A DNA stretch of 64,000 nt, from contig CALMUT010000080.1 in the NCBI GenBank assembly GCA_937872925.1, forward strand, positions 1 through 64,000. The letters run 5' to 3'. Below are positions 10,438 through 59,844 of this stretch, piece by piece. Below the pieces are notes generated by a model. That model had not been told where the DNA came from. It ran no database searches and worked only from the letters and a program-made list of their open reading frames with translations. This DNA comes from an uncultured Myxococcales bacterium (GTDB lineage Bacteria; Myxococcota_A; Polyangia; Polyangiales; Polyangiaceae). A program made the translations under genes and the position numbers. Numbering within the stretch: the first letter of the stretch is position 1; each line of letters opens with the position of its first letter.

Positions 10438-11442
10438 CTAGCGCGGATCCAAGTTCTCCATACCGCGCAGCGTGGCCGTGCCCTTCAGCTGGACCTGGCT
10501 CCAAGCGTCACCGACGATATCACCGGAAAACAGCGTGCTTTGATCGCCAGACACGTACTTGCGCAGTCCATCGTGTGAAATCAGCGCCGCAAACAGATCG
10601 CGGTTCGTTGGCGCCGGTGCGGTCTGCCAATTCCCCTCGGCGTGTTGTTCCGCGATCAGCCCCGCGTTGCCGGCGACGAGGGCGTGTTTGCCGTCGTGGG
10701 ATACGGCGACCGCACGCAAACCACGGGACAGACTCGCGCTCTTGTCGAAGCTGACGCCCAGATCGTTGCTTTCCCAAATCACGCCCTCAGAATCGACAAC
10801 CAAGATCCGGCCGCCGCTGGCGTCCATGGCAACACCGTACAGATCCCCGGCGCCTGGGATCGTCACTGGCGCGAAGCTGGCCCCGCGATCCATCGAGCGT
10901 GCAACCGCAGCGCCATCCCCCACGGCCAGCATGAGCTGTCCGCCATGGGAGACCGCAACCGAGCGCAGCGTCGACCCAAACAGCGGGGGCACCAGCGCCC
11001 AAGTATCGCCTCCGCTGTCTGTCACCGCGATCGTGCCCGCGTCACCCGCCACGATCCCGATGAACTTGCCCTGAGCACCGGAGAACTGGCTGGTGAGGCG
11101 CACCGCCCGCAGGGTCTGATCCGTCGCGACGTGTTGTTCGGTCCACGTTTCGCCGCTGTCCGTCGAGCGCGCGACGTAGCCAGATTCACCAACGGCCCAG
11201 CCGTCGTTGTTGCCGACGCACGCTACGGCGTGCAGATCGCGATCCGTGAGTGTGCGCTCGTGCCACTGCACGTCGTCGAACGTCTGCGCGAACGTCCCGT
11301 TGTCGCCCACGGCAGCAACCCAGCCCTGGTTGCCACCAGTCCCGCCGTCCTTGGGAGCCGGTTTCTTGTCGTCGTCGCTGCCGCAGGCAGCCATGAGGCC
11401 GAGTCCCAGAACCAGCGTCCCCGTCACAATCGCGGTCTTCAT
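10438..11442 (-). CDS. Lipoprotein with BNR/YCF48-like beta-propeller repeats
   Basis: The 334-residue protein begins with a lipoprotein signal (LGLGLMAACGSDDD). It then has recurring blades of the type DNGTFAQTFDDVQW, ESGYVARSTDSGETW, GAAVARSMDRGASF and GVIWESNDLGVSF. These match the Ser/Asp-x-D-x-G-x-x-W pattern of BNR and YCF48-like photosystem-assembly propellers. Six or so blades would close a propeller. The frame is open upstream to 11781, but the ATG at 11442 starts exactly at the signal peptide. The function is unknown; it is likely displayed in the periplasm or on the outer membrane. Confidence 0.75.
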   Translation of the reverse strand: MKTAIVTGTLVLGLGLMAACGSDDDKKPAPKDGGTGGNQGWVAAVGDNGTFAQTFDDVQWHERTLTDRDLHAVACVGNNDGWAVGESGYVARSTDSGETWTEQHVATDQTLRAVRLTSQFSGAQGKFIGIVAGDAGTIAVTDSGGDTWALVPPLFGSTLRSVAVSHGGQLMLAVGDGAAVARSMDRGASFAPVTIPGAGDLYGVAMDASGGRILVVDSEGVIWESNDLGVSFDKSASLSRGLRAVAVSHDGKHALVAGNAGLIAEQHAEGNWQTAPAPTNRDLFAALISHDGLRKYVSGDQSTLFSGDIVGDAWSQVQLKGTATLRGMENLDPR

Positions 11443-11623
11443 GGGCACTAGGGTACATGACATTGAGCAAGTCACCCGAGACTCTAGGCTCATACTACTG
11501 GAATCATTGGACTTTCTTGGCGCCCCGGACGAACCACGCAGCGCTGTAGCCCACGCGGGCCAGCGCTGTAAGCTCCGCCAAGGCCGCTCCGTTGACTGAT
11601 ACGCCTCACTGCCCCCGACCCCC

Positions 11624-13093
11624 ATGCCGGAACACAAACCTAGACTCATCAGTGCGCTCTGCGCCGCCTCCCTGCTCGCCGCGATCGGCTGTGGCTCCAA
11701 CAAACCCGCCAAACCGCCGGATGCAGGCCCCGCGACCGAGCGGGATTCCAGCGCCAAGCAGCGCGAGAAGGTGGCGATCACCGTCTACAACCAGAACTTC
11801 GGTTTGGTGCGGGAGATCCGCAAAGTCGAGCTGGGCAAGGGACGCGTGGCTTTGGAGTACCAAGACGTATCCGCCCATATCCAGCCCGAGACGGTGCACA
11901 TACGGAGCCTAGACCGAGGCGACGCGCTGTCCGTGCTCGAGCAGAACTACCGCTATGACCTGCTCAGTCCCCAGAAGCTGCTTGAGAAGTATGTGGGGAA
12001 GACGATCAAGGTCTACCGCTACAACGAAAAGACCGGCACCGAAGACGCCTTCGATGCGGAAGTCCTCGCAGTCGAAAAAGGCACGGTGCTCAAGATCAAC
12101 GGTGAAGTGACCTACAACTTCCCGGGGCGCTTCGCTTTCCCGGAGGTGCCAAAGAACTTGATGGCCAAACCAACACTGGTGTGGCTGCTGACTAGCGGCA
12201 TGCCCCAGCAACGCGTAGAGGTGAGCTACATCTCGCAGAACCTGAACTGGAACGCCGACTACGTCCTGACCGTGAACGACAAGGACGACGCAGGCGATCT
12301 AACCGGCTGGGTCACGCTGACGAATAACAGCGGAACCAGCTACGAAAGCGCGGAACTCAAGCTGGTCGCTGGCGATGTGCAGCGGGTACGTCAAGAAATG
12401 AACCGTGACCGCTACGACGATCTCGACGAAGCGGAGAGCGCCCCCGGCGGCGACAAACAATTCAGCGAAGAGGGCTTCTTCGAGTACCACCTGTATACCC
12501 TGGGTCGCGCGACGGACCTGCTCGACAAGGAACAGAAACAGGTGACGCTGCTGTCAGCCAACGGCATCGGCATCCAGAAGAAGATGATCTACTTCGGTCA
12601 GCAGCACTACTACCGCGGCAGCTATGGCCAGGTGATGAAGAACCAGAAAGTCGGCGTCTACCTGGACATCGAGAACAGTGAAAAGAACAAGATGGGCATG
12701 CCGCTGCCGCAAGGCATCGTGCGTGTGTACAAGGCCGACAAGGCTGGCGCCAAGCAGTTCATCGGCGAGGACCGCATTGACCACACCCCGCGGGACGAAG
12801 AGATCCGCATCAAGATGGGGGAAGCCTTCGACGTGGTTGGTGACCGCAAGCAGACGGAATGGCGAACCCTGGGCCATTGCGCATCCGAAAGCAGCTGGGA
12901 AATTGAGCTACGCAATCACAAAGACGAGGCGGTCCGCGTCGAAGTGATGGAACCGATCGCCGGCGACTGGGAGATCCTCACGGAAAGCCACCGTCACATC
13001 AAAGAGGACTCCAAGACTTTCAAGTTCGACGTGAGCGTGCCCGCTCGCGGCAAGACCCAAGTGACCTATCGCGTGCGCGTGCGCTGGTGCTGA
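11624..13093 (+). CDS. DUF4139 domain-containing lipoprotein (copy 1 of a tandem pair)
   Basis: The 489-residue protein has a lipoprotein signal with Cys in LAAIGCGSN, then the full DUF4139 region. Shared segments are ITVYNQNFGLVREIRKVELG near residue 50, ALSVLEQNYRYDLLSPQKLL, KPTLVWLLTS, and the beta-rich C-terminal half from NADYVLTVNDKD onward. The family's biochemical role is unknown. The gene is followed two bases later by a close paralogue in the same direction, so the pair forms one operon. Copy 1 has a lipobox, whereas copy 2 does not, which suggests one membrane-anchored and one soluble secreted version. Confidence 0.82.
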   Translation: MPEHKPRLISALCAASLLAAIGCGSNKPAKPPDAGPATERDSSAKQREKVAITVYNQNFGLVREIRKVELGKGRVALEYQDVSAHIQPETVHIRSLDRGDALSVLEQNYRYDLLSPQKLLEKYVGKTIKVYRYNEKTGTEDAFDAEVLAVEKGTVLKINGEVTYNFPGRFAFPEVPKNLMAKPTLVWLLTSGMPQQRVEVSYISQNLNWNADYVLTVNDKDDAGDLTGWVTLTNNSGTSYESAELKLVAGDVQRVRQEMNRDRYDDLDEAESAPGGDKQFSEEGFFEYHLYTLGRATDLLDKEQKQVTLLSANGIGIQKKMIYFGQQHYYRGSYGQVMKNQKVGVYLDIENSEKNKMGMPLPQGIVRVYKADKAGAKQFIGEDRIDHTPRDEEIRIKMGEAFDVVGDRKQTEWRTLGHCASESSWEIELRNHKDEAVRVEVMEPIAGDWEILTESHRHIKEDSKTFKFDVSVPARGKTQVTYRVRVRWC

Positions 13094-13095
13094 TC

Positions 13096-14529
13096 ATGAA
13101 GACACGAAGACTCAAGAACGTCTGCCTTGGCCTCGGCGCGCTTTCCCTGGGCGCACTGGCAAACTCTGCCGCAGCTGCCCCGACCAAAAAGTCCTCGGGC
13201 GCCGGCGACCGCAAGGAAGTCAGTATTACCGTCTACAACCAGAACTTCGGCCTGGTGCGAGAAGTCCGCGAGCTGAACTTGGGCACAGGTCAGGTCGCCC
13301 TGGCTTTCAAGGACGTCGCGGCGCAGATCCAACCGGAGACGGTTTCGATCAAGGCGGCTGGCGGCGGGCTCTCGGTGCTGGAGCAGAACTACCGCTTCGA
13401 CCTGCTGACCCCACAAAAGCTGTTGGAAAAGCACGTCGGCCGTAAAGTGCGACTGCACCGCTACAACGAACGCCTGGGCAAGGAAGACAGCTTCGACGCC
13501 GAGCTGCTTTCCGTGGCCGACGGCGCCCCCGTCTACAAGATTGGAGGCGAAATAACCTATGCCTTCCCGGGGCGAGTGAGCTTTCCGGGTGTGCCAGACA
13601 ACCTGATGAGCAAGCCCACCCTGGTGTGGTTGCTAGACAGCAAGGCGCCAAAGCAACGCGTTGAAGTCACCTACCTGACGCAGAACATGACCTGGAAGGC
13701 CGACTACGTCTTCGTGATCAACGACAAGGACACGCTGGGGGACTTGACGGGTTGGGTCACGTTGAACAACCGCTCCGGCGCGAGCTACGAAAGTGCACGG
13801 CTCAAGCTGGTGGCAGGGGACGTACAGCGGGTCTCGGGCAATATGCAACGCGCGGCGCGCAGCGCGCCCATGACCGCGTCCAAGTCAGAGGACCGTTTTC
13901 AGGAAGAGAGCTTCTTCGAGTACCACCTGTATACCTTGCAGCAGCCTACGGACGTGCTGGAGAACGAGCAGAAGCAAGTCACGCTGCTCGAAGCTCAAAA
14001 CGCGAAGGTGCGCAAGAAGCTGATCTACTACGGTCAGCAGTACTGGTACCGCAGCAGGTACGGCGAAGTGCAGAAGAACCAGAAAGTCGGCGTGTACCTG
14101 GACCTAGAGAATACCAAGCAAAACGGCCTGGGCATCCCCCTGCCCAAGGGCATCGTACGCGTATACAAGGCCGACAAGAGCGGCGCCAAGCAGTTCATTG
14201 GCGAGGACAGCATCGACCACACCCCGCGCGACGAGCGAGTGCGGATCAAGATGGGCGAGGCCTTCGACGTCGTTGGCGACCGCAAGCAGATGTCCTGGCG
14301 CGCTTTCGGTTCCTGCACATCTGAAAGCGAGTGGGAGATCGAGCTACGCAATCACAAAGACAGCGCCGAGCAAGTGGAAGTCTTCGAGCCTATCGGTGGC
14401 GACTGGACGGTGCTGGAGTCGACACATCCCCACAAGAAGAAGGACGCATTTACCTTCACCTTTGACGTGAAAGTCCCTTCACGAGGCAAGACCAAGATCA
14501 AGTACCGCGTCCGCGTGCGCTGGTGTTGA
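13096..14529 (+). CDS. DUF4139 domain-containing secreted protein (copy 2 of a tandem pair)
   Basis: This 477-residue paralogue of the preceding gene shares long near-identical blocks such as VYNQNFGLVRE, SVLEQNYRFDLLTPQKLLEK, GAKQFIGED and IELRNHKD. Its N-terminus is an ordinary Sec signal ending near NSAAAAP, with no lipobox. The ATG at 13096 lies just after the upstream stop and is preferred to the GTG at 13087. Both proteins end in YRVRVRWC, with a C-terminal Cys kept in each. Tandem duplication followed by a change of anchoring is the simplest history. Confidence 0.82.
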   Translation: MKTRRLKNVCLGLGALSLGALANSAAAAPTKKSSGAGDRKEVSITVYNQNFGLVREVRELNLGTGQVALAFKDVAAQIQPETVSIKAAGGGLSVLEQNYRFDLLTPQKLLEKHVGRKVRLHRYNERLGKEDSFDAELLSVADGAPVYKIGGEITYAFPGRVSFPGVPDNLMSKPTLVWLLDSKAPKQRVEVTYLTQNMTWKADYVFVINDKDTLGDLTGWVTLNNRSGASYESARLKLVAGDVQRVSGNMQRAARSAPMTASKSEDRFQEESFFEYHLYTLQQPTDVLENEQKQVTLLEAQNAKVRKKLIYYGQQYWYRSRYGEVQKNQKVGVYLDLENTKQNGLGIPLPKGIVRVYKADKSGAKQFIGEDSIDHTPRDERVRIKMGEAFDVVGDRKQMSWRAFGSCTSESEWEIELRNHKDSAEQVEVFEPIGGDWTVLESTHPHKKKDAFTFTFDVKVPSRGKTKIKYRVRVRWC

Positions 14530-47992: not shown

Positions 47993-48718
47993 ATGAACAC
48001 GAGAAGCCGCGGACTGGGTCGCTTGATTCGCAACGTCGATCTCAAAGCGGTGCTTGGCCTGTTGGCTGTCTTTGCCTTGGTCGCGGGGCTGTGGGGAACC
48101 TTCGCCGTCACTCCGTTGAAGATCTTCGTCGTGCTGCTGCACGAGATCAGCCACGGCATCGCAGCGGTCCTCACCGGCGGCAGCATCGTGAAGATGGAGA
48201 TCAACGTACGCCAAGGCGGCGTTTGTTACACCACGGGAGGGATCCGCTTCTTCGTGCTCAGCGCCGGCTACCTCGGCAGTATGCTTTGGGGCGGCCTCAT
48301 CGTCGTGGCCGCGTCGCGCAGCAAACGCCAGCGCTGGATCAGCCTGGGGATCGGCGGGTTCGTCCTCGCGGTGACCGTGCTCTACGTGCGCTCCTGGTTC
48401 GGATTTGGATTTGCGCTCTTGGCGTCCGGCTTGCTCATCGTCATGGGTCTCAAGCTGTCCCACGACATCAATCAGTTTGTGCTCCAGGTCATTGGAGTCA
48501 CTAGCTGCCTCTACGCCGTGCTCGACATCGTCGATGACGTTTTGCAGCGCCCAGGGATCGGCTCCGACGCCGACATGCTGGCGGATCTCACCTTCGTGCC
48601 GTCCGTGGTGTGGGGCGTGATTTGGATCGCCATCGCCGTCGTCGTCACCGCCGCGTGCCTGCTGGTTGCTGCTCAAAAACCCGCAGTCGCGTCGACCCCC
48701 AAGCCGCGGTTTCGGTGA
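47993..48718 (+). CDS. M50-family (M50B-like) membrane metallopeptidase
   Basis: The 241-residue multi-span protein has the zinc motif HEISH (His50, Glu51, His54) within helix VVLLHEISHGIAAVLTGG, and six or so hydrophobic helices. A further feature, SHDINQFVLQVIG, may supply an additional polar residue. Site-2-type proteases cleave membrane substrates and often release regulators. This member resembles the small M50B proteins rather than the PDZ-containing RseP type. It lies between Gly-rich lipoprotein genes, but no substrate can be named. Confidence 0.82.
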   Translation: MNTRSRGLGRLIRNVDLKAVLGLLAVFALVAGLWGTFAVTPLKIFVVLLHEISHGIAAVLTGGSIVKMEINVRQGGVCYTTGGIRFFVLSAGYLGSMLWGGLIVVAASRSKRQRWISLGIGGFVLAVTVLYVRSWFGFGFALLASGLLIVMGLKLSHDINQFVLQVIGVTSCLYAVLDIVDDVLQRPGIGSDADMLADLTFVPSVVWGVIWIAIAVVVTAACLLVAAQKPAVASTPKPRFR

Positions 48719-48747: not shown

Positions 48748-49560
48748 TCACTGCAGAGCGCTGACCACCACGTCGTCGACATGGCAGAATTCAGTCACGG
48801 CCCCGGCGGTGCACTCGAAACGGATCTTGAACGCGGCGTTGTTGTTGGCCGTGGCCGGCAGATTGTAGCTCCGCGCTGCGTACGCGCCGTCATTTGCCGA
48901 AGACGGTCCGGTCTGCTCAAGAGCGATCCAAGTCGCGCCGTCGAACCAGCGCACTTTGAACTCGTCGGCCGAGTCTAGCTGCACCAACCGACGCGAATAC
49001 GCCACCACGATTTGACTGCGGCCGACGGTACTCACCGCGCGTTCCAACAGACTTGCGGGTTCGGAAGTCGAGGACGGCTGCGCACGCGCCGCCCAGGTGC
49101 CACTCCCCGGGCTCAGAGTCGACGCCTGCCACGGGGCTCCAGGACCGCTCAACTGCCAGGCGCCGATCCCGCCGGACTCGAAGTCGTCGCTGAAAAGCAC
49201 GACCGGGGCACCGCCTGTTCCACCCGTACCCCCGCTGCCACTCGCGTTCCCGATCCCACCGGCGCCGCCGCTGCCGCCGAGACCCGCCGTGCCGCCCGCG
49301 CCACCGGTCGCGCCACTTGCCCCCGTACCGCCAACGCCACCCCCACCACTGGCGCTCGTGCCACCGCCGCCCGCCGCGCCCGCGCCGCTCGAACCTCCAC
49401 CGGCCATGGCTGCGTCAGCGCCCGATCCCCCGCCCGTCTGGCCGCCGCCGCCATCGGTCCCACTCGATCCCCCCGCGTCGCCCACCGTGGGCGCTGCATC
49501 AGGGAACACGCTGCACGCCGTCATGGCGACACAGATACCGAGCATGCTGAGCGGGCGCAC
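48748..49560 (-). CDS. Gly-rich lipoprotein with C-terminal beta-sandwich domain
   Basis: The 270-residue protein is read from a GTG at 49560, giving MRPLSMLGICVAMTACSVFP, a short lipoprotein signal with its Cys near residue 16. The ATG at 49545 would remove the basic residue. A Gly/Ala/Ser/Thr linker spans residues ~25-120. The end, LFSDDFESGGIGAWQLSGPGA onward to FCHVDDVVVSA, resembles the FESG-type carbohydrate- or ligand-binding sandwich of secreted proteins. Function unknown. It ends about 30 bases after the M50 peptidase gene, which is convergent. Confidence 0.65.
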   Translation of the reverse strand: MRPLSMLGICVAMTACSVFPDAAPTVGDAGGSSGTDGGGGQTGGGSGADAAMAGGGSSGAGAAGGGGTSASGGGGVGGTGASGATGGAGGTAGLGGSGGAGGIGNASGSGGTGGTGGAPVVLFSDDFESGGIGAWQLSGPGAPWQASTLSPGSGTWAARAQPSSTSEPASLLERAVSTVGRSQIVVAYSRRLVQLDSADEFKVRWFDGATWIALEQTGPSSANDGAYAARSYNLPATANNNAAFKIRFECTAGAVTEFCHVDDVVVSALQ

Positions 49561-49740
49561 CTTGCCAGTATCGCACGGCCGACGACGACCGACCCCCACT
49601 TCCGCCAAGGGCGCTCCACAATTCATCACGACGCTGGGCACGGCTCTTCAAGTTCGGCGCTTTGCGTTAGCCGGCTCACGCGCGTTGGGCAGGGCTGTCT
49701 CATGGGTAACAATCCTTCGGACTGCTACTGACACACCGCC

Positions 49741-50799
49741 CTAGTTGGGCGGCGTCAGCTGCTTGTCGTAGAACTTGATTTCGTCGATGGTTCCGTCGGC
49801 GTAGCTGTTGTAGCCAGACTTAGCTCCGACATAGACGTGGCTGCCACCCGCGGCACCGCCGTTGAGCGGCCCGGGCCCGGCGCCAATGCCGATGCCCACG
49901 GGACCGAGGATGTCGAGCGTGACCACGTTGGCGCCCGTGCCGTTCGCGTTCCAGGTCGCAAAGATGTGGACCCAAATGTTGGGGTTGCACACGAAGGGCA
50001 CCTTGGCCACGAAAGGCGTTCCGGCATTTTGATGCCCGTAGGTGGCCTGCAACTCCGCGGTGCCTGCGTTTGAGACGACCGTGAGTGAGAAGCTGTGCCC
50101 CTCTGGCGGGCGATGCACCAAGTAGCGCACCGTCGTGCCAACTTGGGCGCAGTTGTCGTTGGGCTTGTACCAAAGGTCGACGCTGCCCTCGGTCCACAGC
50201 GAATTGGCGTAGGGAAACTTCAGCCCGTAGCTGCCCGACGCAGGAAACTGCGCAGCGCCGCCGCATTTGCCCGCCGAAATGAAGTTGGCGCCGGATCCGT
50301 TCAGGTAGCCCGAACCGCCTTTTTCGGGCGTGGTGACCTTGGCCGCGGAATCCAAGGAGCTGTACAGCACCATGGACGTGTCCGTCAGGTTCACTGCGCA
50401 GTCTCCGCCGCCAGTGCCGCCGCTTCCCGAAGCGCCACCGCTGCCGCCACTGCCCGACGAACCACCGCTGCCCGACGCGCCGCCGCTGCCCGAAGCGCCG
50501 CCGCTGCCGCCGCTTCCCGACGAACCGCCGCTGCCGCTCGCGTTCCCCGATCCACTGTTGCCTCCAGTGCCACCGCCCACGCCACCGCTATTACCGCCGG
50601 CGCCGCTGTTGCCGGCACCCGCAGTGTTGCCGGCGCCGGCGCTGTTCCCGCTACCGCCGCTTCCCGAGCTATTGCCGACACCTCCCGTCGCGCTGGTGTT
50701 ACCTGCGCCAGCTGCCCCGCCGCTCCCCGCGAAGTCCTCCCCGCCGCAACCGACCACCGCAACGAGAACCCCAAGCCCCAAGGATTTATAAGAACGCAT
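49741..50799 (-). CDS. Gly-rich lipoprotein with LamG-like domain
   Basis: The 352-residue protein has a lipoprotein signal (LVAVVGCGGED), a very long Gly/Ser/Asn/Ala stalk over residues ~20-135, and a C-terminal LamG/concanavalin-like domain. That domain has MVLYSSLDSAAKVT, WTEGSVDLWYKPNDN, SLTVVSNAGTAELQATYGHQ, PNIWVHIFATWN, and the closing YADGTIDEIKFYDKQL. This layout is common in myxobacterial surface-binding proteins. No catalytic residues are expected. Repeats within the stalk are listed separately. Confidence 0.78.
   Translation of the reverse strand: MRSYKSLGLGVLVAVVGCGGEDFAGSGGAAGAGNTSATGGVGNSSGSGGSGNSAGAGNTAGAGNSGAGGNSGGVGGGTGGNSGSGNASGSGGSSGSGGSGGASGSGGASGSGGSSGSGGSGGASGSGGTGGGDCAVNLTDTSMVLYSSLDSAAKVTTPEKGGSGYLNGSGANFISAGKCGGAAQFPASGSYGLKFPYANSLWTEGSVDLWYKPNDNCAQVGTTVRYLVHRPPEGHSFSLTVVSNAGTAELQATYGHQNAGTPFVAKVPFVCNPNIWVHIFATWNANGTGANVVTLDILGPVGIGIGAGPGPLNGGAAGGSHVYVGAKSGYNSYADGTIDEIKFYDKQLTPPN
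50397..50727 (-). repeat. Low-complexity Gly/Ser-rich stalk repeats in the LamG lipoprotein gene
   Basis: This coding stretch encodes residues ~25-135 with repeated GSGGSSGSGG and GSGGASGSGG modules, and includes an approximate doubling of a 20-residue block. The GC content and regularity make slippage likely, so length may vary between strains. Confidence 0.8.
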
Positions 50800-50873
50800 T
50801 CCTACATCATAGCAGCGATCTTGGATCGCGAGACTCGGAGCGAGCGCCTACATGCGCGCACACCCGCGCCAGA

Positions 50874-51569
50874 TCACTGATGAAGCACGCTGGCGAGCGC
50901 AGCGACCAGCCCGCGGACGCGCGCCGGGGTGATCCACGCCTGACCTAGTTCTAGCTCGATGCCCGCGTAGCAACGCGGCGAAAACTCGCGACGCAGCGCC
51001 GTCGTGTGGCCGTCCGCCGTGCCGCGGTAGGGGTAGTTGCGTCGGACTCGGAGCGCCGGCAACGCTGCCGCGAGGGCGCTCTGCATGCGAGCCGCGAACC
51101 CTCGTTCCGCGGCGCGTACCGGGTCGTAGAGCAGTCCCAAGTCGGCCTCACGACGCTTGCCGGCGAGCACTGGCGTGAACGAATGGACTGACACGTGTAG
51201 CGCGAAGCCGCTGGCGCCGATGGCGTCTCTTATGGAAGCCGCGACCGCGTCGCGGAACGGAGCATGGTAGCGGCTGACGAGTTCGTCACGCACGGACGAC
51301 GGCTGCTGCCGCACGGCCGCCGCGTGCAGGCCTCGGTGGTGCAGGCTTCGGTTCAAGTCGATGACCAGTCGGCTGACCTCTCCGACGTGCAGCGGCGCTC
51401 GGGTCTCCCGGGCCAACAGCCGCGCGGCGCCGAGAGCGCCAGCGTCGAACCCGCGGTGGCTGTGCAAGGCGCGCTTCGTCAGCACGCCGCGTAGGGACTT
51501 TGGCACCGCACAACTCGCGTGCTCGCAACTCAAGACAACGCCGAAGCGCTTCGGCACAGTCGGATTCAT
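50874..51569 (-). CDS. N-formylglutamate amidohydrolase family protein
   Basis: This 231-residue FGase-family amidohydrolase begins FGVVLSCEHASCAVPKSL, the family's N-terminal metal-binding signature. It continues with HRGFDAGALGAARLLARE, then SRLVIDLNRSL, ALHVSVHSFTPV and ADLGLLYDP, where the His and Asp positions are typical. Family members cleave N-formyl-glutamate or related N-acyl amino acids. The ATG at 51569 is chosen; a TTG at 51608 would overlap the upstream gene. It is last in a four-gene minus-strand cassette with GCS2, RimK-like and C39-like genes, suggesting it trims a glutamyl product. Confidence 0.85.
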   Translation of the reverse strand: MNPTVPKRFGVVLSCEHASCAVPKSLRGVLTKRALHSHRGFDAGALGAARLLARETRAPLHVGEVSRLVIDLNRSLHHRGLHAAAVRQQPSSVRDELVSRYHAPFRDAVAASIRDAIGASGFALHVSVHSFTPVLAGKRREADLGLLYDPVRAAERGFAARMQSALAAALPALRVRRNYPYRGTADGHTTALRREFSPRCYAGIELELGQAWITPARVRGLVAALASVLHQ

Positions 51570-51597
51570 CCCCACCACCGATGCTTTGACCGCTGCG

Positions 51598-52851
51598 TCA
51601 TGGCTCAAAAGAGCGACCGGCGCGCAGGCACTGCGCCAGCCCTCGATACACGCGTTCCAGGTCCGCGTGGCTCGGCGTCGGGCCTGTAGCGCTCACGATG
51701 CGGTCCGCGAGGCTGCCCTGCTCTAGGATGACCGCTAGCGCCCTGGCCTCATCGCTTCCGATTGCGCCGGCTTGCATCGCACGCTCCAGAATGCGCGCCC
51801 AAGCTTCGCCCGCAGTGAGCACGCGGTCCGGCAATCCCAGCGCAGCACAGTAGTCAGCGGAGCCGAGCTGCGCCGCCCCCGCTTGTCGCGCGCAGCGGGT
51901 GAAGATCGCTTCGAGCTCCTCCACGGAAAACGCGCGTTGCGCCGCATCGTTAATGGTCTTGCCTTCAGTGAGTTCTTGCAGCAGGAACACCGCAAGCTGC
52001 GCGATCCCCAAGTCAGCGGAGGGGTGTTCTTGCACGTCGACGACGCGGATCTCGATGCTGTCACGCACGAATCGCGCAATCGCGCCGCGGGCGTTGACCC
52101 ACTCGGCCTCAAGCTCTTCGTCGCTGTCGAAGGGCGCAACCGCAACCGCGATGGGTTCCAGGATCTGCTGTTTGTAGCTAGACCGATCAAAGACGGCCTC
52201 AGGGATGACCCGCCCGGTCACGATGGGCAAGCGAGCACAGTTCCGCCGGTAGTGCACCAATCGCGCGTCCCGGGCGTCGGCCACTTTGCCCTCGAAGATC
52301 GGCGAGCTCGCCGCAAGCGCAGGCAAGATCGGCAAGAGCAGGCGGATCGCCGCGTGGAGCCGCCCAAACTCGTCGTCGCCGGTGAAGGGCAAGTTCAGGT
52401 GCACGCTCTGCAGATTGGACCAGCCATGCCCGCGGCAGTCGAAGATGCGATTGAAGGTCGCGTAGATCTCTTGACTGTCGTGTGGCCACAGCTTGGTCTC
52501 CGTGAGCGGGTCCATCCACGGGTGCATCGCAGTCGGCAATAAACGCGCGGAATGCTGAGCAAGCAGCGCGTCGATCTGCAGCGCATTGCCATGAAAGAGC
52601 GGAGCAAGTCCCTGCAGGCTTGGAGCCGGCGCGGTTGTCTTCAATTCGACGACGTGCAGCACCAGTTCGTTCGACCAAGAGATGTCACCGTGCTCGACTT
52701 CGTTCTCGATGGCGCCGGCCGGGCCGATCAGCACACGATCGGCAATGGGCAGCACGGCCAGGGACTCCTGGTCGACGATCATGTATTCGATCTCGACGCC
52801 GTAGCCTTCGAACAGGCGCAGCCCCGGAGGCGCTTCAACGCTGTCCGTCAT
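51598..52851 (-). CDS. GCS2-family carboxylate-amine ligase
   Basis: The 417-residue protein belongs to glutamate-cysteine ligase family 2 (COG2170 type). Its opening, RLFEGYGVEIEYMIVD, has the Glu-x-Glu metal site, and EVEHGDISWSNELVLHVVELKT, HPWMDP and HGWSNLQSVHLNLPF follow, as in the glutamine-synthetase-like fold. The fold catalyses ATP-driven joining of a carboxylate and an amine. Whether the substrates are glutamate and cysteine or something else is unknown. It overlaps the RimK-like gene by 17 bases and lies 28 bases from the FGase start, so coordinated expression is nearly certain. Confidence 0.85.
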   Translation of the reverse strand: MTDSVEAPPGLRLFEGYGVEIEYMIVDQESLAVLPIADRVLIGPAGAIENEVEHGDISWSNELVLHVVELKTTAPAPSLQGLAPLFHGNALQIDALLAQHSARLLPTAMHPWMDPLTETKLWPHDSQEIYATFNRIFDCRGHGWSNLQSVHLNLPFTGDDEFGRLHAAIRLLLPILPALAASSPIFEGKVADARDARLVHYRRNCARLPIVTGRVIPEAVFDRSSYKQQILEPIAVAVAPFDSDEELEAEWVNARGAIARFVRDSIEIRVVDVQEHPSADLGIAQLAVFLLQELTEGKTINDAAQRAFSVEELEAIFTRCARQAGAAQLGSADYCAALGLPDRVLTAGEAWARILERAMQAGAIGSDEARALAVILEQGSLADRIVSATGPTPSHADLERVYRGLAQCLRAGRSFEP

Positions 52852-54313
52852 CGCGTCCGTTTCGTTTTAGCTCGATGTGCCGAACGAAGTAGTCGACGAT
52901 GGCGTCGTAGATAGCGTCGCCACCGATGGCGTCTTCATAGCCGGCTTCGAGGGATGGGTTGTCGTTGACCTCGATCACCGTGACGCGGCGCCCACGCTGC
53001 TTCAGGTCGACGCCATAGAGCCCGCGGCCGATCAGATTGGCGGCTTTGACGCCCAAACGCACGACGGCGCGCGGCGCATCTTCCAGCTCGATGGCCTCGA
53101 CGCGTCCGTAGCGGCGGGCTGTGCCCTGCCCTTTTTGGATCTGCCAGTGTTTGGGCGCCATGAAATACTTCGCCGCCCAGATCGGCTTGCCATCCAACAC
53201 GCCGATGCGCCAATCGAATTCCGTCGGGAACCACTCCTGCGCGATGATCAGATCGCTCTTCGCCAACAGCTCCGCCACTTGGTCCTGCAACTCGGCGCGC
53301 GTGCTGACCTTGTGCACACCTTGAGAAAACGCGCTGTCCGGCTTCTTCAGGATACAGGGCAGACCCAGCTCCGCTTCGATGCAATGGATGTTGTCCTTGT
53401 GCACCACTAACGTCTTCGGTGCTGCAATGCCATGACGCGTCAACAGCTCCGACAGATAAACCTTGTTCGTGCAGCGCAGAATCGAGTTTGGGTCGTCGAT
53501 CACCACTAGCCCCTCCGCCTGCGCACGCCGCGCGAAACGATAGCTGTGGTGGTTCACATGCGTGGTCTCCCGAATGAACAGCGCGTCAAAGTTCGAGAGA
53601 CGCGTGTAGTCGTCCTTGTTGACTACAGTCACGCTCATGTCGCGGCGCTGTGCGGCTCGCGTGAGCCGCGTCACTGCTTTTTCATCCGAAGGCGGGTCCG
53701 GATCCTTGGGATCGAAAAGCAACGCTAGGTTGTAGCGGGCGGTCTTGCGCTTGGGTGGGCTGAAGCGCCCTTGCTTGAAGAACTGCGCCGCCTGCTTGCG
53801 CACGAAGGGTCGGTGGCTCTCCGGTATTTCCCCCGCGCCGATGGCGTTGATGCTGGAAAGGTACCAGCGGCCGCCACGAGAACGGTTGAAACTGACCCGG
53901 AGCAGCGGCGCAAAGAACAGCTTGAATAGGTGCGCGCTCAAGCGATCGTAGCGCTTGGCCAGGTTGCGCCCAAAGTACACCGAGAGCTCGAAGGAACTCG
54001 ACTGGATCGGCGCCAGGCTGCGCTGGATGAGCTCGTCGAGTTCGTCAGAGCGGATGCGCACGATCTCGTTGGCTTTGAGCTCCTGAATCGTACTGACACT
54101 TGGCACGGACTTGTGGCCCCGCGCGGCAGCCAGCAGCGACACGTAGTAACCCGTGGCCTGGTAGCGATAGGAGCGACATAGGTTGAACACGGCCACGCCG
54201 CGCAGCTCGCTGAAGCGCGGCTCAGTTAGGTAGGCGCGTGCTGCAACGACCTCGACCTCGGGGATCCGAAAACGCCATTCTGTTGGTTTTACGACGACGA
54301 TGAGTGCCCGCAT
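52835..54313 (-). CDS. RimK-like ATP-grasp ligase with N-terminal RLAN-type domain
   Basis: This 492-residue protein has an N-terminal region (residues 1-220) that matches the RimK-like ATP-grasp N-terminal type: FNLCRSYRYQATGYYVSLLAA, RGHKSVPSVSTIQELK. A C-terminal ATP-grasp domain has DDPNSILRCTNKVYLSELL, then PCILKKPDSAFSQGVHKV, AQEWFPTEFDWRIGVLDGKP, LYGVDLK, and VIEVNDNPSLEAGYE, the metal-binding Glu/Asn pair. RimK-type enzymes add glutamates or other amino acids to a protein or small-molecule amine. The substrate is unknown. It is directly followed by GCS2 (17-base overlap) and preceded by the C39-like gene. Confidence 0.9.
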   Translation of the reverse strand: MRALIVVVKPTEWRFRIPEVEVVAARAYLTEPRFSELRGVAVFNLCRSYRYQATGYYVSLLAAARGHKSVPSVSTIQELKANEIVRIRSDELDELIQRSLAPIQSSSFELSVYFGRNLAKRYDRLSAHLFKLFFAPLLRVSFNRSRGGRWYLSSINAIGAGEIPESHRPFVRKQAAQFFKQGRFSPPKRKTARYNLALLFDPKDPDPPSDEKAVTRLTRAAQRRDMSVTVVNKDDYTRLSNFDALFIRETTHVNHHSYRFARRAQAEGLVVIDDPNSILRCTNKVYLSELLTRHGIAAPKTLVVHKDNIHCIEAELGLPCILKKPDSAFSQGVHKVSTRAELQDQVAELLAKSDLIIAQEWFPTEFDWRIGVLDGKPIWAAKYFMAPKHWQIQKGQGTARRYGRVEAIELEDAPRAVVRLGVKAANLIGRGLYGVDLKQRGRRVTVIEVNDNPSLEAGYEDAIGGDAIYDAIVDYFVRHIELKRNGRDDGQR

Positions 54314-54319
54314 GATGGT

Positions 54320-55075
54320 TTAGCGCGCAGACCCTTTCTCGATGATGAGCAGGTTGGCGTCATAAGTGACTATGCCGAGTAGAATGGCATTGGTTACGCG
54401 ATCGATCCCGATCCAGTATTGGCGAGACCGACTGCGCGATTGCGGTTCCCATGGGTCCGCAACGTGAACAAGTTTCTGGATCTTGTCGTAACCATTGAGA
54501 ACGACGAAGTGCCCCATGGGCTCACCGCGAACATCGTCGAAGTCACAATTCGGACCGTGCTCCCTTGCGCAGCGGTATAGATACGTCGCCGACAGCCCGG
54601 TGAGAATGGGGATATTTTTGGCAAGGTAGCGCCGAATCAAGCCCGGGTTGAGCTCCTCGAAGCGCAACTGGCCGCCCCGCTTCAGGAAATCGACGTAGTA
54701 CTCGGTGGCGCGCCGAAGTTTCTTGCTGCGCTTTTCCTTGGCTTGCGCCTGGAGCCGCTCCACGAGGTCTACCCCCGGGGCGAACCAGGTCGGATCAAAG
54801 ACCATCAGGTTGTAGGTGTATATGGTCACCTGGTAGCCCCGGGCCAGGGCGTCGCAGGCGAGCATCACGCCCAGGGTGCCACCTCCGTCCACGGTTGCGG
54901 TGTCCGCAATGACGCGGTCCAGCGCCACGTCGTCGCCGTAGAAGTTGTAGACCGCATGCAGACAGGTCGGCCCGCACGTGGTGTCGTCGGGCTGGGGCAA
55001 GATCGGTAGCGCAAGCGTCTTCTTAGGCGCCGGGGCGAACCGTTTCTTTTTCTTCGTCGTGGGCGTTTTGGGCAT
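54320..55075 (-). CDS. C39/papain-like cysteine peptidase-fold protein
   Basis: This 251-residue protein has a basic N-terminal stretch, then the C39-type catalytic start QPDDTTCGPTCLHAVYNFYG (Cys34). The His motif is MGHFVVLNGYD, and the Asp motif follows shortly in HVADPWEP. No signal or membrane helix is evident, so it is probably cytosolic. The family cleaves at Gly-Gly leaders in bacteriocin systems or acts on peptide products. As the first gene of the amidoligase cassette, only six bases before the RimK-like start, it likely processes the product or its protein carrier. The longer frame to 55339 is rejected as unlike the family. Confidence 0.82.
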   Translation of the reverse strand: MPKTPTTKKKKRFAPAPKKTLALPILPQPDDTTCGPTCLHAVYNFYGDDVALDRVIADTATVDGGGTLGVMLACDALARGYQVTIYTYNLMVFDPTWFAPGVDLVERLQAQAKEKRSKKLRRATEYYVDFLKRGGQLRFEELNPGLIRRYLAKNIPILTGLSATYLYRCAREHGPNCDFDDVRGEPMGHFVVLNGYDKIQKLVHVADPWEPQSRSRSRQYWIGIDRVTNAILLGIVTYDANLLIIEKGSAR

Positions 55076-55167
55076 CAACTGCAGACGGCTATGCGTCCCG
55101 GCCGCGTCTTGTAGCACGCCGCGCCGCAGTCCAGGAAACCCGCCCCAAGACGGGCGCACTCCACAGG

Positions 55168-55893
55168 TCAGACCAAGCCGCTGCCTGACCGGTCCGTACC
55201 GCGAGACAGGCCCCAGGCGTGGCGGACGTCTTCGCCTTCCACCATGAAGACCACCATCTCCGCCACGTTCGTGGCGTGGTCGGCGATGCGCTCCAGATAC
55301 TTGCCGACAGACTGAAGCCGCGTCGCTCGGTACACGCATTTGGGATCGTCCATCATCACTGCTACCAACTCGGGGAAAAGCTGGGCGTAGGTTGCGTCCA
55401 CCACGCTGTCGCGCTCGATGACGGCACGCGCGGCGTCCGCGTCGCCGCTGACGAATGAATCGAGCGCACCGCGCAACATTTCCGTGGTCACCGCACCCAT
55501 GCGCGTGATCGTCGTCATGGCAGAGAGTGGCGATTCTTCCGTGAGCTCGATCACGCGCTCACATACATTGACGGCCAAGTCTCCGATGCGTTCCAGGTCC
55601 GTCACCAGCTTCATGGTGCTGGTGATGAAGCGCAGGTCCGAGGCCACGGGCTGTCGCTTCGCCAAGATGCGAAGGCATTGCTCGTCAATCTCGAGTTCGA
55701 GCCGGTCGACCTCCGTGTCCCCTTGCAGGGTCTGCCGCGCCAAGTCCGAGTCGCGCTCGACGAACGCACTGAGCGCCTGGGTCAGCAATTCTTCGACCTT
55801 GGCGCCCATGAGCAAGATGTTCTCACGAAGCTTGGCCAGATCCGCTTCGTAGCTGCGGTCCGTGTGGCGTGTTGCCGCTTGTGATCCCGTCAT
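55168..55893 (-). CDS. phoU: Phosphate transport system regulatory protein PhoU
   Basis: The 241-residue all-helical protein has two PhoU repeats, each with the metal-binding pattern: DLERIGDLAVNVCER in the first and YLERIADHATNVAEMVVF in the second. It links the Pst transporter to the PhoR-PhoB two-component system and restrains phosphate-starvation signalling when phosphate is ample. The ATG at 55893 has GGGAGAG just upstream; the longer frame to 55929 is less likely. It is the last gene of the pst operon, 28 bases after pstB. Confidence 0.95.
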   Translation of the reverse strand: MTGSQAATRHTDRSYEADLAKLRENILLMGAKVEELLTQALSAFVERDSDLARQTLQGDTEVDRLELEIDEQCLRILAKRQPVASDLRFITSTMKLVTDLERIGDLAVNVCERVIELTEESPLSAMTTITRMGAVTTEMLRGALDSFVSGDADAARAVIERDSVVDATYAQLFPELVAVMMDDPKCVYRATRLQSVGKYLERIADHATNVAEMVVFMVEGEDVRHAWGLSRGTDRSGSGLV

Positions 55894-55921
55894 CTGCAGT
55901 CTCTCCCCTATCCAGCTAGGC

Positions 55922-56785
55922 TCAACCAAAACGTCCCGTGATGTAGTCTTCTGTGCGCTTTTCCCGGGGCCGGGTGAACAGCACGTCGGTCTGCCCGTAC
56001 TCCACCAACTCGCCGATATAGAAGAACGCCGTATAGTCTGCGACGCGCGCCGCCTGCTGCATGTTGTGGGTCACGATCACGATGGTGTACTGCCCCCTCA
56101 GCTCGTGGATGAGTTCTTCCACACGCGCCGTTGCGATGGGGTCCAGGGCAGAACAGGGCTCGTCCATCAGCACCACTTCGGGCTTGAGCGCCAAGGTGCG
56201 GGCAATGCAAAGTCGCTGCTGCTGTCCTCCGGACAGGCTCATGCCAGAACGGTCCAAGCTGTCTTTGACTTCGTCCCACAGCGCAACCTGTCGCAGGACC
56301 TGTTCAACCACCTGCTCCGGCTTCTGTACGCGGATTCCGTTCAGACGCAACCCGGCGAGCACATTGTCGCGAATGCTCATCGTGGGAAACGGGTTCGGCT
56401 TCTGGAACACCATGCCTACTCGGCGGCGCACCTGCACGGGATCCACTTCCCTTGCGTAAATGTCGTTCTTGTCCAGAAGTACACGCCCGGATACGCGCGC
56501 GCCTTCCACAACTTCGTGCATTCGGTTCAGGCAACGGATGAAAGTCGACTTGCCACAGCCCGACGGGCCGATGATGGCCGTGACTTGCTTGTCCAGCACA
56601 GGCAGGTCGATGCCGCGCAACACTTCTGTCGCGCCGAATGCGGCGCGCAAAGCCTCGGCCCGCATCTTCGTGGGTGCGTTCTGAACGACCTCTGCGGCCG
56701 TCGGTGAGGATGCCACCGGCTTTGACTTCGCTGGGCTCTCTGCGCTTTTGGCAAAAGGGATGGAAAGTTCCATGTTCGCGTTCAT
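55922..56785 (-). CDS. pstB: Phosphate ABC transporter ATP-binding protein
   Basis: This 287-residue protein has Walker [21 protein letters not shown], the PstB-specific [17 protein letters not shown], signature [15 protein letters not shown], Walker [21 protein letters not shown] and [20 protein letters not shown]. It energises phosphate import. Its ATG overlaps the pstA stop (ATGA). An N-terminal extension of about 45 residues before [11 protein letters not shown] is unusual and Ser/Ala/Pro-rich. Confidence 0.97.
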
Positions 56786-57636
56786 CGGGTCCTCACACGG
56801 CTCTTCACCAGCAAACGAGCTGCGACGTTCAGGAAAAGCACAAGCGCCACCAGCACCAAGGCCGAAGCCCACGCTTTCTGCTGCCAGTCTTCATAGGGCG
56901 AAACAGCGTAGGTGTAGATCTGGACCGGGAGTGAGGCCGTGGGTTCGTTGAGCCCTTCGGACCAGAACTGATTGTTGAACGCTGTAAACAGCAGCGGCGC
57001 CGTTTCGCCAGCGACGCGGGCCACCGCCAGCATCACCCCCGTTGCGATGCCCGGAGCTGCCGTTCGCAGCACGACACTCAAAGTCGCGCGCCACTTTGGT
57101 ACCCCAAGCCCGAGCGCCGCTTCTCGAAGCGCCGTGGGTACAAGTTTGAGCAACTCCTCGGTGGTGCGCGTCACGGTCGGCAGCATCAGCACCGCAAGCG
57201 CCACGCCTCCCGCGAGGGCACTGAAGCGTTTCGTGGTGAGCACGATCATGCTGTACACGAAGATGCCCACCACGATGGATGGCACGCCACTGAGCACATC
57301 CGCGGAGAAGCGCACGACCTTGGCCAGCTTGCCCGACCCGAACTCCGCAAGATACACGCCAGCCAAGACGCCGGGCGGGATCCCGAACAGGCACGCCAGG
57401 CCCACGAGCTCCAAGGTGCCAACGATGCCGTTGGCAACGCCGCCGCCGGTCTCTCCCACAGGTTTGGGCAGCTCGGTGAGCAAATCCCAATCCAGCCCAC
57501 CCACGCCACGAACCGCAACGTAGTAGAGGACCAAGCCCAAGGGCACGAGGGCAAGCGCCGTGGCCAGCACGCAGGCTCCACGTACGATGTGGTCCACCAC
57601 CTTGCGGCGAGCGTAAGGTTCGTCGCCAGCAGTCAC
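56782..57636 (-). CDS. pstA: Phosphate ABC transporter permease PstA
   Basis: This 284-residue permease has six hydrophobic helices and the EAA-type loop [23 protein letters not shown] that contacts the ATPase. Typical PstA segments are [29 protein letters not shown] and [14 protein letters not shown]. It forms the membrane channel with PstC. The start overlaps the pstC stop by four bases. Confidence 0.95.
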
Positions 57637-58634
57637 GCGTGCGCCCCTTTCGGCATGCGGCCGACTCGCCAGACCAGCAGCCGCGCGAGGATGTTGAGCG
57701 TCAGGGTGACGACGAAAAGCAGCAGTCCGATCTCAGCGAGTGCCGCAAGGTATACGTCACCGGTCGCTTCCGTGAACTCGTTGGCAATGACACTGGCCAT
57801 GGTGTACGAAGGCGCAAACAACGAGGCGCTGATCTCCGCACGGTTGCCGATCACCATGGTGATGGCCATGGTTTCTCCCAGGGCACGACCCAGCCCAAGC
57901 AACACGGCTCCGAGGAGCCCGCTCTTGGCGTAGGGCAATACGGCGGTACGCACGGTCTCCCAGCGCGTCGCTCCTAGGGCCAGGGCACCTTCGCGCAGTG
58001 TCACGGGCACTGCCTTGAGTACCTCCCGACTGACGCTGGCGATCGTCGGGATGATCATGATGGCGAGCACCACGCCGCCCGCAAGCATGCCAAAACCTTG
58101 ATGCGGCCCGGCAAACAGCGGCAAGAAGCCAAGATACTTGGCAAGGAAGGGCTCCACGACATTGCGGAGGAATGGCGCCAAAGCGAAGATCCCCCACAGG
58201 CCGTATACAACGCTGGGCACCGCGGCGAGTAGCTCAACGAGGAAGCCAACAGGCGCTCGAAGCCAGCTCGGTGCCAGTTCCGACAAGAAGACCGCGACGC
58301 CGAGGGAAATCGGCACCGCGATCAAAAGAGCGAGCAGGGACGACACCACGGTCCCATAGATGAACGGCAAGGCCCCAAAGTCGTCTCGAACCGGATCCCA
58401 GTTCCGACCCGTCAAGAAATCCCAACCGAACTTCTCGATGCTGGCGGCAGACGCTCCGTACATCTCCCACGCCATCAAAAGCAGCGTCGCAAGCACGGAA
58501 AGCGCCATGAGCGCCGTCGCCGCTCGGAATAATCGATCGCCCGGGTTCACGTCACGGCCGCGGCGAGCAAACCACCGCGGCCGGCGCTGCACCGGGCCGC
58601 CGGAGACCGAGCCAGAGTTCAGGGTGTTTTCCAC
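57633..58634 (-). CDS. pstC: Phosphate ABC transporter permease PstC
   Basis: This 333-residue permease has a helix near residues 33-55, then FGWDFLTGRNWDPVRDDFGALPFIYGT, a segment diagnostic of PstC. Further helices follow, and an EAA-type motif REGALALGATRWETVRTAVLPYA. Partner of PstA in the high-affinity phosphate transporter. It starts five bases after the pstS stop. Confidence 0.95.
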   Translation of the reverse strand: MENTLNSGSVSGGPVQRRPRWFARRGRDVNPGDRLFRAATALMALSVLATLLLMAWEMYGASAASIEKFGWDFLTGRNWDPVRDDFGALPFIYGTVVSSLLALLIAVPISLGVAVFLSELAPSWLRAPVGFLVELLAAVPSVVYGLWGIFALAPFLRNVVEPFLAKYLGFLPLFAGPHQGFGMLAGGVVLAIMIIPTIASVSREVLKAVPVTLREGALALGATRWETVRTAVLPYAKSGLLGAVLLGLGRALGETMAITMVIGNRAEISASLFAPSYTMASVIANEFTEATGDVYLAALAEIGLLLFVVTLTLNILARLLVWRVGRMPKGAHA

Positions 58635-58639
58635 GGCGT

Positions 58640-59716
58640 TTAGCTGCCGGCCAGCAGCGTCTTTCCAGCGGACTTCAAGGTCTTGAGTCGCGCTTCCACC
58701 TTCTTCATCACGGGATCAGGAAGCGGCGCATAGTGCAACGCCTCGGCGTGCTTCTGGCCGTCGTGAATCGCCCACCACAAGAACTCGGCCAGGGTCTTGG
58801 CTTTGGTGGCATCCGGGCTGTCTTCGTAAACGAGAATGTAGGTGTAGGAGGCGATCGGGTAGGCGCCTTCGCCGGCGGCATCCGTGATGCTGACGTGCAG
58901 TTCGTCGGGAACCGCAATCCCGGCACCCGCCGCCGTGATCGCCGCGATACTGGGCGCGACGAACTTGCCGGCTTTGTTCTTGACCGACGCGACCGGCATC
59001 TTGTTTTGGGTGGCGTAGGCCAACTCCACATAACCCACAGATCCGGGAGTCGTCTTCACCTGACCGGTCACGCCCTCGTTGCCTTTGGCGCCCAAGCCGC
59101 TGGGCCACTTGACGCTCTTGCCTGCACCGACCTGACTCTTGAACTCCGATGAGACTTTGCCGAGGTACTCCGTGAACACCGCCGTAGTGCCGCTGCCGTC
59201 GGAACGGCTCACGACGCTGATCTTCTGGTCGGGCAAGGAGACTTCCGGGTTGTCAGCAGCAATGCGCGGATCGTTCCACTTGGATATCTCCCCCAGGAAT
59301 ACGTCCGCCAGTACATCTCCAGCGATCTTCAACGGCGCTGAAACGCCGGTGACGTTGTAGGTCACCACGACAGCGCCCATGGTGGTCGGGATGTGAAGCA
59401 GCTTGCCTGCCGCCTTTGTCGTCTCGTCCGCCGTCATTGGCGCGTCCGATGCGCCGAAGTCGACCGTTTTGGCAGTGATCTGGCGAATACCACCGCCAGA
59501 TCCGATCGACTGGTAGTTGATGCGGACGTTCGGGTGCTTGGAATTGTACTCACTCATCCACTTGGAATAGAGCGGGTACGGAAAGGTGGCGCCCGCACCG
59601 TTGAGGGAAATGGTGTCCGTCTTGGACCCGCCCGGGCTAGACGAGGTCTCTTTGCTGCAGGCGGCGAGCAACAGGGTGGACAGTGAGATAGCCGCAAATG
59701 TACGTCGCGTGATCAT
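58640..59716 (-). CDS. pstS: Phosphate-binding lipoprotein PstS
   Basis: The 358-residue solute-binding protein has a lipoprotein signal (STLLLAACSKET) and the PstS phosphate-binding core: NGAGATFPYPLYSKWMSEYN, YQSIGSGGGIRQITAKTVDFGASDAPM, ISVVSRSDGSGTTAVFTEYL and KGNEGVTGQVKTTPGSVGYVELAYA. It captures phosphate in the periplasm for PstCAB. The ATG at 59716 begins the signal; the longer frame to 59827 is rejected. Two PHO-box-like repeats lie upstream, so it should be induced by PhoB on phosphate limitation. Confidence 0.96.
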   Translation of the reverse strand: MITRRTFAAISLSTLLLAACSKETSSSPGGSKTDTISLNGAGATFPYPLYSKWMSEYNSKHPNVRINYQSIGSGGGIRQITAKTVDFGASDAPMTADETTKAAGKLLHIPTTMGAVVVTYNVTGVSAPLKIAGDVLADVFLGEISKWNDPRIAADNPEVSLPDQKISVVSRSDGSGTTAVFTEYLGKVSSEFKSQVGAGKSVKWPSGLGAKGNEGVTGQVKTTPGSVGYVELAYATQNKMPVASVKNKAGKFVAPSIAAITAAGAGIAVPDELHVSITDAAGEGAYPIASYTYILVYEDSPDATKAKTLAEFLWWAIHDGQKHAEALHYAPLPDPVMKKVEARLKTLKSAGKTLLAGS

Positions 59717-59774
59717 GTTGGCGGATGAATAGCAACCGCCCATCAGGCGTGCGCGGCGCCCGGGAAACATCTCT

Positions 59775-59792
59775 GTGACAAGCGTGTGACGA
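59775..59792 (-). promoter_or_regulatory. PHO-box-like direct repeats upstream of pstS
   Basis: On the minus strand, TCGTCAC then TTGTCAC occur as 7-base repeats exactly 11 bases apart with a 4-base spacer. This matches the PhoB-binding pattern of CTGTCAC-type repeats. They lie about 60-75 bases before the pstS ATG. Confidence 0.7.
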
Positions 59793-59844
59793 ACGCTTTC
59801 TGGCGCTCCCTGCGCATTGCAGGACAAGACCGGCGAGGCGGCCG

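Follow-up and report, generated by a model that had tools for sequence, protein, structure and literature searches.

Background

Gene systems built around RLAN-RimK, a ligase in which an RLAN domain (Pfam PF14401) is joined to a RimK-like ATP-grasp domain, are already known. Iyer et al. 2009 reportedly noted the RLAN family, together with its neighbourhoods, in their comparative genomics, and the Pfam text for PF14401 is said to mention GCS2 proteins (carboxylate-amine ligases) in the neighbourhoods of RLAN-RimK. Members that act on glutamate are known among the RimK-type ligases, in GCS2 and in the FGase (N-formylglutamate amidohydrolase) family. Glutamate tails made by RimK are reversed by RimB (PMC12239564), which is an established precedent for the make-and-unmake logic proposed below. 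The literature accessible to searching, with Iyer et al. 2009 outside it, yielded no functional study of RLAN, PF14401, DUF3335 or the gene combination considered here; this agrees with the original prediction for the locus, made from its sequence, that the product is not established.

The cassette

The window, that is, the whole 64,000-nucleotide stretch of DNA from an uncultured Myxococcales bacterium that was analysed, contains four closely packed minus-strand genes at 50874-55075. In order of transcription they encode a C39-like papain-fold cysteine peptidase (54320-55075; 251 aa, with its ATG at 55075), an RLAN-RimK ATP-grasp ligase (52835-54313; 492 aa), a GCS2-family carboxylate-amine ligase (51598-52851; 417 aa) and an FGase-family hydrolase (50874-51569 from its ATG, or 50874-51608 from an upstream TTG). 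Six bases (54314-54319) separate the C39 and RLAN-RimK genes, the RLAN-RimK and GCS2 genes overlap by 17 (52835-52851), and 28 (51570-51597) lie between GCS2 and the ATG start of FGase. The original prediction had named these four families at this place and on this strand, as the open reading frames and Pfam also do, and its two gaps and one overlap are exact by the coordinates of the reading frames.

All of the Pfam assignments are above cut-off: 41.5 bits against 24 for the C39-like protein (PF13529, Peptidase_C39_2), 70.1 against 21 for GCS2 (PF04107) and 84.1 against 28.9 for FGase (PF05013). In RLAN-RimK the RLAN part (residues ~25-173) scores 158.6 bits against 25 with PF14401, and the ATP-grasp part 34.1 against 21 with PF08443 (RimK), the pre-ATP-grasp and ATP-grasp regions together occupying residues ~194-484; the protein is a fusion of an RLAN domain to a RimK-like ATP-grasp domain. 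Assignment to particular enzymes is another matter. The NCBIfam score of RLAN-RimK with the model of canonical RimK, the S6-glutamate ligase (NF007764), is 33.9 bits against 331; GCS2 reaches 38.9 of 176.4 with TIGR02050 (YbdK / gshA_cyan_rel) and falls below the equivalog cut-offs of the glutamate-cysteine ligases (GshA, EgtA) with 28 against 249 (TIGR02048) and 37.7 against 371 (NF010039); FGase, although a member of the broad PF05013 family, scores 13.2 bits where 278.75 are needed for the N-formylglutamate deformylase HutG (TIGR02017). All four proteins being far below the cut-offs of their nearest named enzymes, they are to be regarded as members of their families and not as HutG, GshA, YbdK or RimK. 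The names "C39" and "N-formylglutamate amidohydrolase" of the original prediction accordingly hold as family labels, but the second cannot be taken as the name of the enzyme. The nearest solved relative of FGase is Atu2144 (2odf; E 1.8e-45 with the family profile).

The positions expected to be catalytic are retained. The Gln-Cys-His-Asp set of C39 (Q28, C34, H189, D207) is invariant in 42 relatives, and the ATP-grasp residues K284, K323, D436, E448 and N450 of RLAN-RimK in 55; the E20, E22, E69, N153 and R269 region of GCS2 is kept, with the expected catalytic positions invariant in 62 GCS2 proteins, as are those of FGase in 13. All four enzymes are predicted to be catalytically active.

The structural model of GCS2 (pLDDT 95.4) has its nearest match in YbdK (Z 37.6-37.9, rmsd 2.7-2.9 over 348 residues, 13% identity), followed by plant glutamate-cysteine ligase (GCL; Z 34.6), with the GCS part of GshF (Z ~25) and the protein ligase/depupylase PafA/Dop (Z ~15-20) considerably farther away. 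For RLAN-RimK (pLDDT 88.6) the list of structural matches covers residues 191-489 only, that is, the protein without its RLAN domain: residues 194-484 are nearest to ArgX/LysX (Z ~26, rmsd 2.3-2.5 over 263-266 residues), then RimK (Z ~25) and GshB (Z 21.2), and the graspetide ligase PsnB is also among the matches.

Distribution and gene order

RLAN is found in 36 of 379 evenly drawn Myxococcota genomes, and even samples of other groups give 70 of 321 for the class of a Thiobacillus MAG (here Gammaproteobacteria), 35 of 296 for the phylum of Pontibacter (Bacteroidota) and 26 of 118 for the order of a Desulfuromonas MAG (matches of more than 600 bits being counted). A separate scan across phyla collected 80 loci, 70 of them with GCS2, whose placeable hosts represent 17 phyla (two further bacteria are unplaced); since these loci are the best matches to the window's own protein, they are biased toward its type in a way that the evenly drawn samples are not. 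The single further genome examined from the window's genus is without the cassette RLAN and GCS2.

An adjacent GCS2 gene is present at 158 of 243 RLAN loci. Among 138 GCS2 loci analysed for gene order, 79 have C39-RLAN-GCS2-FGase and 37 have C39-RLAN-GCS2; the remainder consist of 20 without an adjacent C39 and just 2 that are rearranged. FGase is the member most often missing: of the 116 GCS2 loci that have room for one, 34 do without. Some RLAN loci lack GCS2 and some lack C39, which in two cases (L125 and L135) is encoded elsewhere in the genome. The median spacings between the profile matches are 18, 20 and 10 bases; the Myxococcota neighbourhoods have the order of the window, commonly with 4-base gene overlaps, and at five Myxococcota loci (L060-L064) RLAN-RimK and GCS2 are a single polypeptide of ~820-960 residues. 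The same families in the same order and at such tight spacing in unrelated phyla are not a chance grouping: the four genes are a real, tightly conserved set that extends across at least 17 bacterial phyla. The kept order and the RLAN-GCS2 fusion strongly support the proposal, made at the outset, of a single amidoligase-plus-hydrolase unit; that proposal would have been undermined by genes frequently lying apart in relatives, and the order is retained in nearly all GCS2-bearing loci.

Does the set have a fifth member? The original prediction had left room for an extra conserved partner, and none recurs in the flanks or among short reading frames. In an all-against-all comparison of 8,752 flanking ORFs (7 kb on each side) no family stands close to the cassette at a large number of loci; the most extensive cluster comprises 14 loci, on either side and strand and at a median distance of 3.4 kb. 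No gene for a target protein, exporter, transporter or regulator recurs beside the cassette in this comparison, no precursor-like or small ORF within 1.5 kb is common beyond close relatives, and no Pup-like small ORF recurs within the same distance. With neither a recurring fifth partner nor a precursor peptide, the cassette looks self-contained. A DUF2817 metallopeptidase-like gene was considered as a conserved partner and rejected, being near only 4 loci, all gammaproteobacterial; at L304, L249 and similar gammaproteobacterial loci it lies between the RLAN gene and a divergently oriented GNAT-type gene.

The surroundings of the cassette in the window itself can be described briefly. On the same strand, 92 bases upstream of the cassette start, is phoU (PF01895), preceded in turn by what appear, as judged by eye, to be phosphate-transport (pst) genes (the whole region being 55168-59827). 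It is possible that the cassette is co-transcribed with phoU in this genome; no phosphate gene recurs beside the other cassettes in the flank comparison. A scan of 50700-55300 for sigma-70-type promoters found none, which is weakly informative in a G+C-rich organism. Downstream, at 48748-50799, are two predicted proteins with long Gly/Ser/Ala-rich low-complexity stretches, one of them carrying a laminin-G-like domain (PF13385), and at 47993-48718 on the plus strand is a gene for an M50B-like membrane peptidase (PF13398, 170 bits).

GCS2 or GNAT, never both

RLAN-RimK has two alternative partners. Of 218 loci, 138 have GCS2 and 63 have a GNAT acetyltransferase (61 detected by sequence search and 2 by Pfam); 17, some of them at contig ends, have neither, and not one has both. 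Twenty-five further loci divide in the same manner (20 GCS2, 5 GNAT, none with both), bringing the totals over 243 RLAN loci to 158, 68, 17 with neither and 0 with both. In the sampled loci, GCS2 and the RimI-like GNAT are solidly mutually exclusive. This is a new observation, in that no description of it was found in the accessible literature (a weak test of novelty). The cassette proteins of the window and their scanned neighbours have no Pfam GNAT match.

The GNAT partner takes several forms. Many gammaproteobacterial RLAN genes adjoin a GNAT-DUF3335 fusion, the form that predominates among the Gammaproteobacteria sampled; in its Azospirillum representative (L146) both GNAT and DUF3335 are detected by Pfam, the GNAT narrowly passing the RimI model, and profile alignment matches the DUF3335 part to the C39 protein of the cassette (hhalign probability 92.7). 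Direct fusions of a GNAT domain to RLAN-RimK occur in Bacteroidota and the Desulfuromonas group, and at one locus (L137) a GNAT gene immediately follows RLAN, in the position that GCS2 usually occupies. The best tree of RLAN has 4 changes of partner, 3 of them forced by strongly supported branches, and single-change trees account for 0 of 200 bootstrap trees; the GNAT-fused clade (Bacteroidota plus the Desulfuromonas group) is nested within the GCS2 clade, and a wider tree agrees. The AU test of a single origin of GNAT-bearing RLAN gives p 0.26 without L137 (not rejected) and p 0.047 with it (borderline). Taken together these results suggest that GCS2 and GNAT have replaced one another repeatedly. 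Our interpretation is that both would place an acyl group (a "cap") on one and the same amine of a shared intermediate. The exclusivity makes function testable: if the same amine is capped, then the RLAN-RimK product should suit both enzymes.

A solo RLAN-RimK on a Pseudomonas aeruginosa plasmid (L145:6908-8497) is near genes for a gamma-glutamyltransferase and a glutamate/aspartate transporter; the P. aeruginosa solo RLAN gene may be PA1345.

Occasional linkage to canonical RimK

At three loci from three Myxococcota families (L040, L053, L057) a canonical RimK is encoded within ~5 kb of the cassette; each of them also has an AstE/AspA-type protein nearby, and L040 a RimB-like protein as well. 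In a Desulfuromonas MAG (L113) the genes after the cassette encode a protein that weakly matches ferredoxin, a RimB-like PF05618 protein and a RimK truncated where the contig stops. A simple rate estimate puts the Myxococcota linkage above chance (3 seen, 0.05-0.12 expected) and the overall linkage modestly so (4 seen, 0.5-0.8 expected), with the reservation that these are 4 of 243 loci, spotted post hoc. The linkage did not recur in the 25 further loci. Its occasional occurrence suggests that the cassette is connected with glutamylation in bacteria; the known case of this modification affects ribosomes and adaptation.

Two intervening genes at these loci may be noted. In L113, the 275-residue protein encoded between FGase and the RimB-like gene (13419-14246) has its weak match to a 4Fe-4S double-cluster domain; in L040, a further papain-like protein, divergent and with a weak match to DUF3335, is encoded on the opposite strand at 10825-11685, between the cassette and the rim genes.

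What might the cassette make?

The reading that we favour, tentatively, is that the cassette is a self-contained module for making and unmaking a capped, small, peptide-like glutamyl conjugate. RLAN-RimK would join an ATP-activated carboxylate to the amine of an amino acid, glutamate being likeliest on the model of RimK and several related ligases, and the RLAN domain may hold the acceptor. GCS2 would then attach another carboxylate (most probably the gamma-carboxylate of glutamate), again at the expense of ATP, to the free amine of the RLAN-RimK product, thereby capping it; in other bacteria, the GNAT acetyltransferase in GCS2's place would presumably supply an acetyl cap. The C39-like enzyme, with its papain fold, may cleave or transfer peptide bonds, and the FGase-family hydrolase may take off an N-acyl or glutamyl group, allowing the components to be reused. 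The substrates, the order of the reactions and the bonds cut by each hydrolase are inferred, not computed. Since three of the four families include enzymes known to act on glutamate, the simplest assumption is a glutamyl product. The full scheme cannot operate at every locus, FGase, GCS2 and C39 each being missing at some, unless the missing genes are elsewhere in the genome.

The principal competitor, unlikely but to be taken seriously, is a protein-tail system resembling that of RimK and RimB, in which RLAN-RimK adds amino acids to a particular protein at its C-terminus or on a side chain. An amine of this protein, or of the residues newly attached to it, would be modified by GCS2 or GNAT, and the mark would be trimmed or reversed by C39 and FGase. 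The substrate of ArgX/LysX is the carrier protein LysW and that of RimK is ribosomal protein S6, and it is to these ligases that the RLAN-RimK fold is nearest. The type I GNATs are similar to RimI, which acetylates the N-termini of proteins; this, together with the canonical RimK and companions that adjoin the cassette in four loci, pulls toward a protein target, and the reversal of RimK tails by RimB (PMC12239564) provides the model. Against it, no target-protein gene recurs beside the cassette, the rim linkage is absent from the 25 further loci, and the relatives of FGase whose function is known act, as a matter of general knowledge, on small molecules. The modelled fold of GCS2, nearer to YbdK and GCL than to the protein ligases PafA/Dop, likewise appears to tilt the balance to a small peptide-like product. 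On these grounds a small free product is favoured over a protein tail, but only mildly.

Other precedents for small products fit less well. A compatible-solute peptide system would follow the logic of the N-acetylglutaminylglutamine amide trio (a ligase, a second amide-forming enzyme and a peptidase); synthetic and degradative enzymes standing alone, without transporter or regulator, and the type I combination of a GNAT with an ATP-grasp enzyme, are in its favour, but Pfam finds no amidotransferase or M42 peptidase among the four proteins, and we consider it improbable. Slightly less credit still is due to a glutathione- or phytochelatin-like thiol pathway, with GCS2 making gamma-glutamyl-cysteine, RLAN-RimK extending it and C39 transpeptidating: the folds of GCS2 (near GCL and GshF) and of the RimK part (near GshB) and the GshF-like logic of the RLAN-GCS2 fusions speak for such a pathway, while GCS2 misses the GCL cut-offs and the host encodes, separately from the cassette, a probable GshA (L309; TIGR01436 403.5 bits, just below the cut-off of 463) and a strong match to the GshB family. 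The narrower notion that the cassette stands in for glutathione synthesis is ruled out by these two host proteins. Least probable of all, and already disfavoured, is a graspetide-like RiPP, its ribosomal precursor cross-linked by the ATP-grasp enzyme and relieved of its leader by C39. ATP-grasp ligases and C39 peptidases are both generally known from RiPP clusters, and PsnB is among the structural matches, but small ORFs within 1.5 kb that resemble a precursor are common to close relatives at most, no exporter recurs, and the abutting or overlapping genes usually leave no intergenic room for a precursor.

The original prediction had offered a glutamylated small peptide, a modified protein or a storage or signalling metabolite as the product; this list has been weighted toward the capped glutamyl conjugate but not narrowed to one entry. 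It is possible, though we would put it less strongly than the favoured reading itself, that the cassettes represent a new capped glutamyl compound or modification in at least 17 phyla, built on an RLAN-RimK core with interchangeable GCS2 (gamma-glutamyl) or RimI-like GNAT (acetyl) caps. An order that is kept across unrelated phyla without any other partner implies a product that should be useful to many bacteria, and the compactness of the cassettes, together with the natural RLAN-GCS2 and GNAT-RLAN fusions, should make for easy expression.

Comparison with known systems

RLAN systems as such are not new; what is undescribed in the searchable literature, which is weak evidence of novelty, is the four-gene form and the RLAN-GCS2 fusion. 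The described RLAN-RimK neighbourhoods (PF14401) share with the cassette the same RLAN-RimK enzyme and an adjoining papain-fold peptidase; the cassette differs in comprising four genes, among which C39, GCS2 and FGase are each separate, and in having no GNAT. The GNAT-DUF3335 plus RLAN-RimK pair, as in Azospirillum (L146), has a homologous RLAN-RimK and a papain-fold domain that aligns with the cassette C39, but a RimI-like acetyltransferase where the cassette has GCS2 and FGase. RimK-RimB-AspA is analogous in combining an ATP-grasp glutamate ligase, a peptidase and a member of an N-acyl-amino-acid hydrolase family, and is at times physically adjacent; it differs in that its RimK is canonical and lacks RLAN, its peptidase is a retropepsin rather than a C39 protein, and it has no GCS2. 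YbdK-type carboxylate-amine ligases provide the closest solved fold for the cassette GCS2, which nevertheless is under the TIGR02050 cut-off. GshA-GshB and GshF, finally, also pair or fuse a GCS-fold ligase with an ATP-grasp ligase, but their families and domain order are different from those of the cassette, whose host has glutathione-type genes as well.
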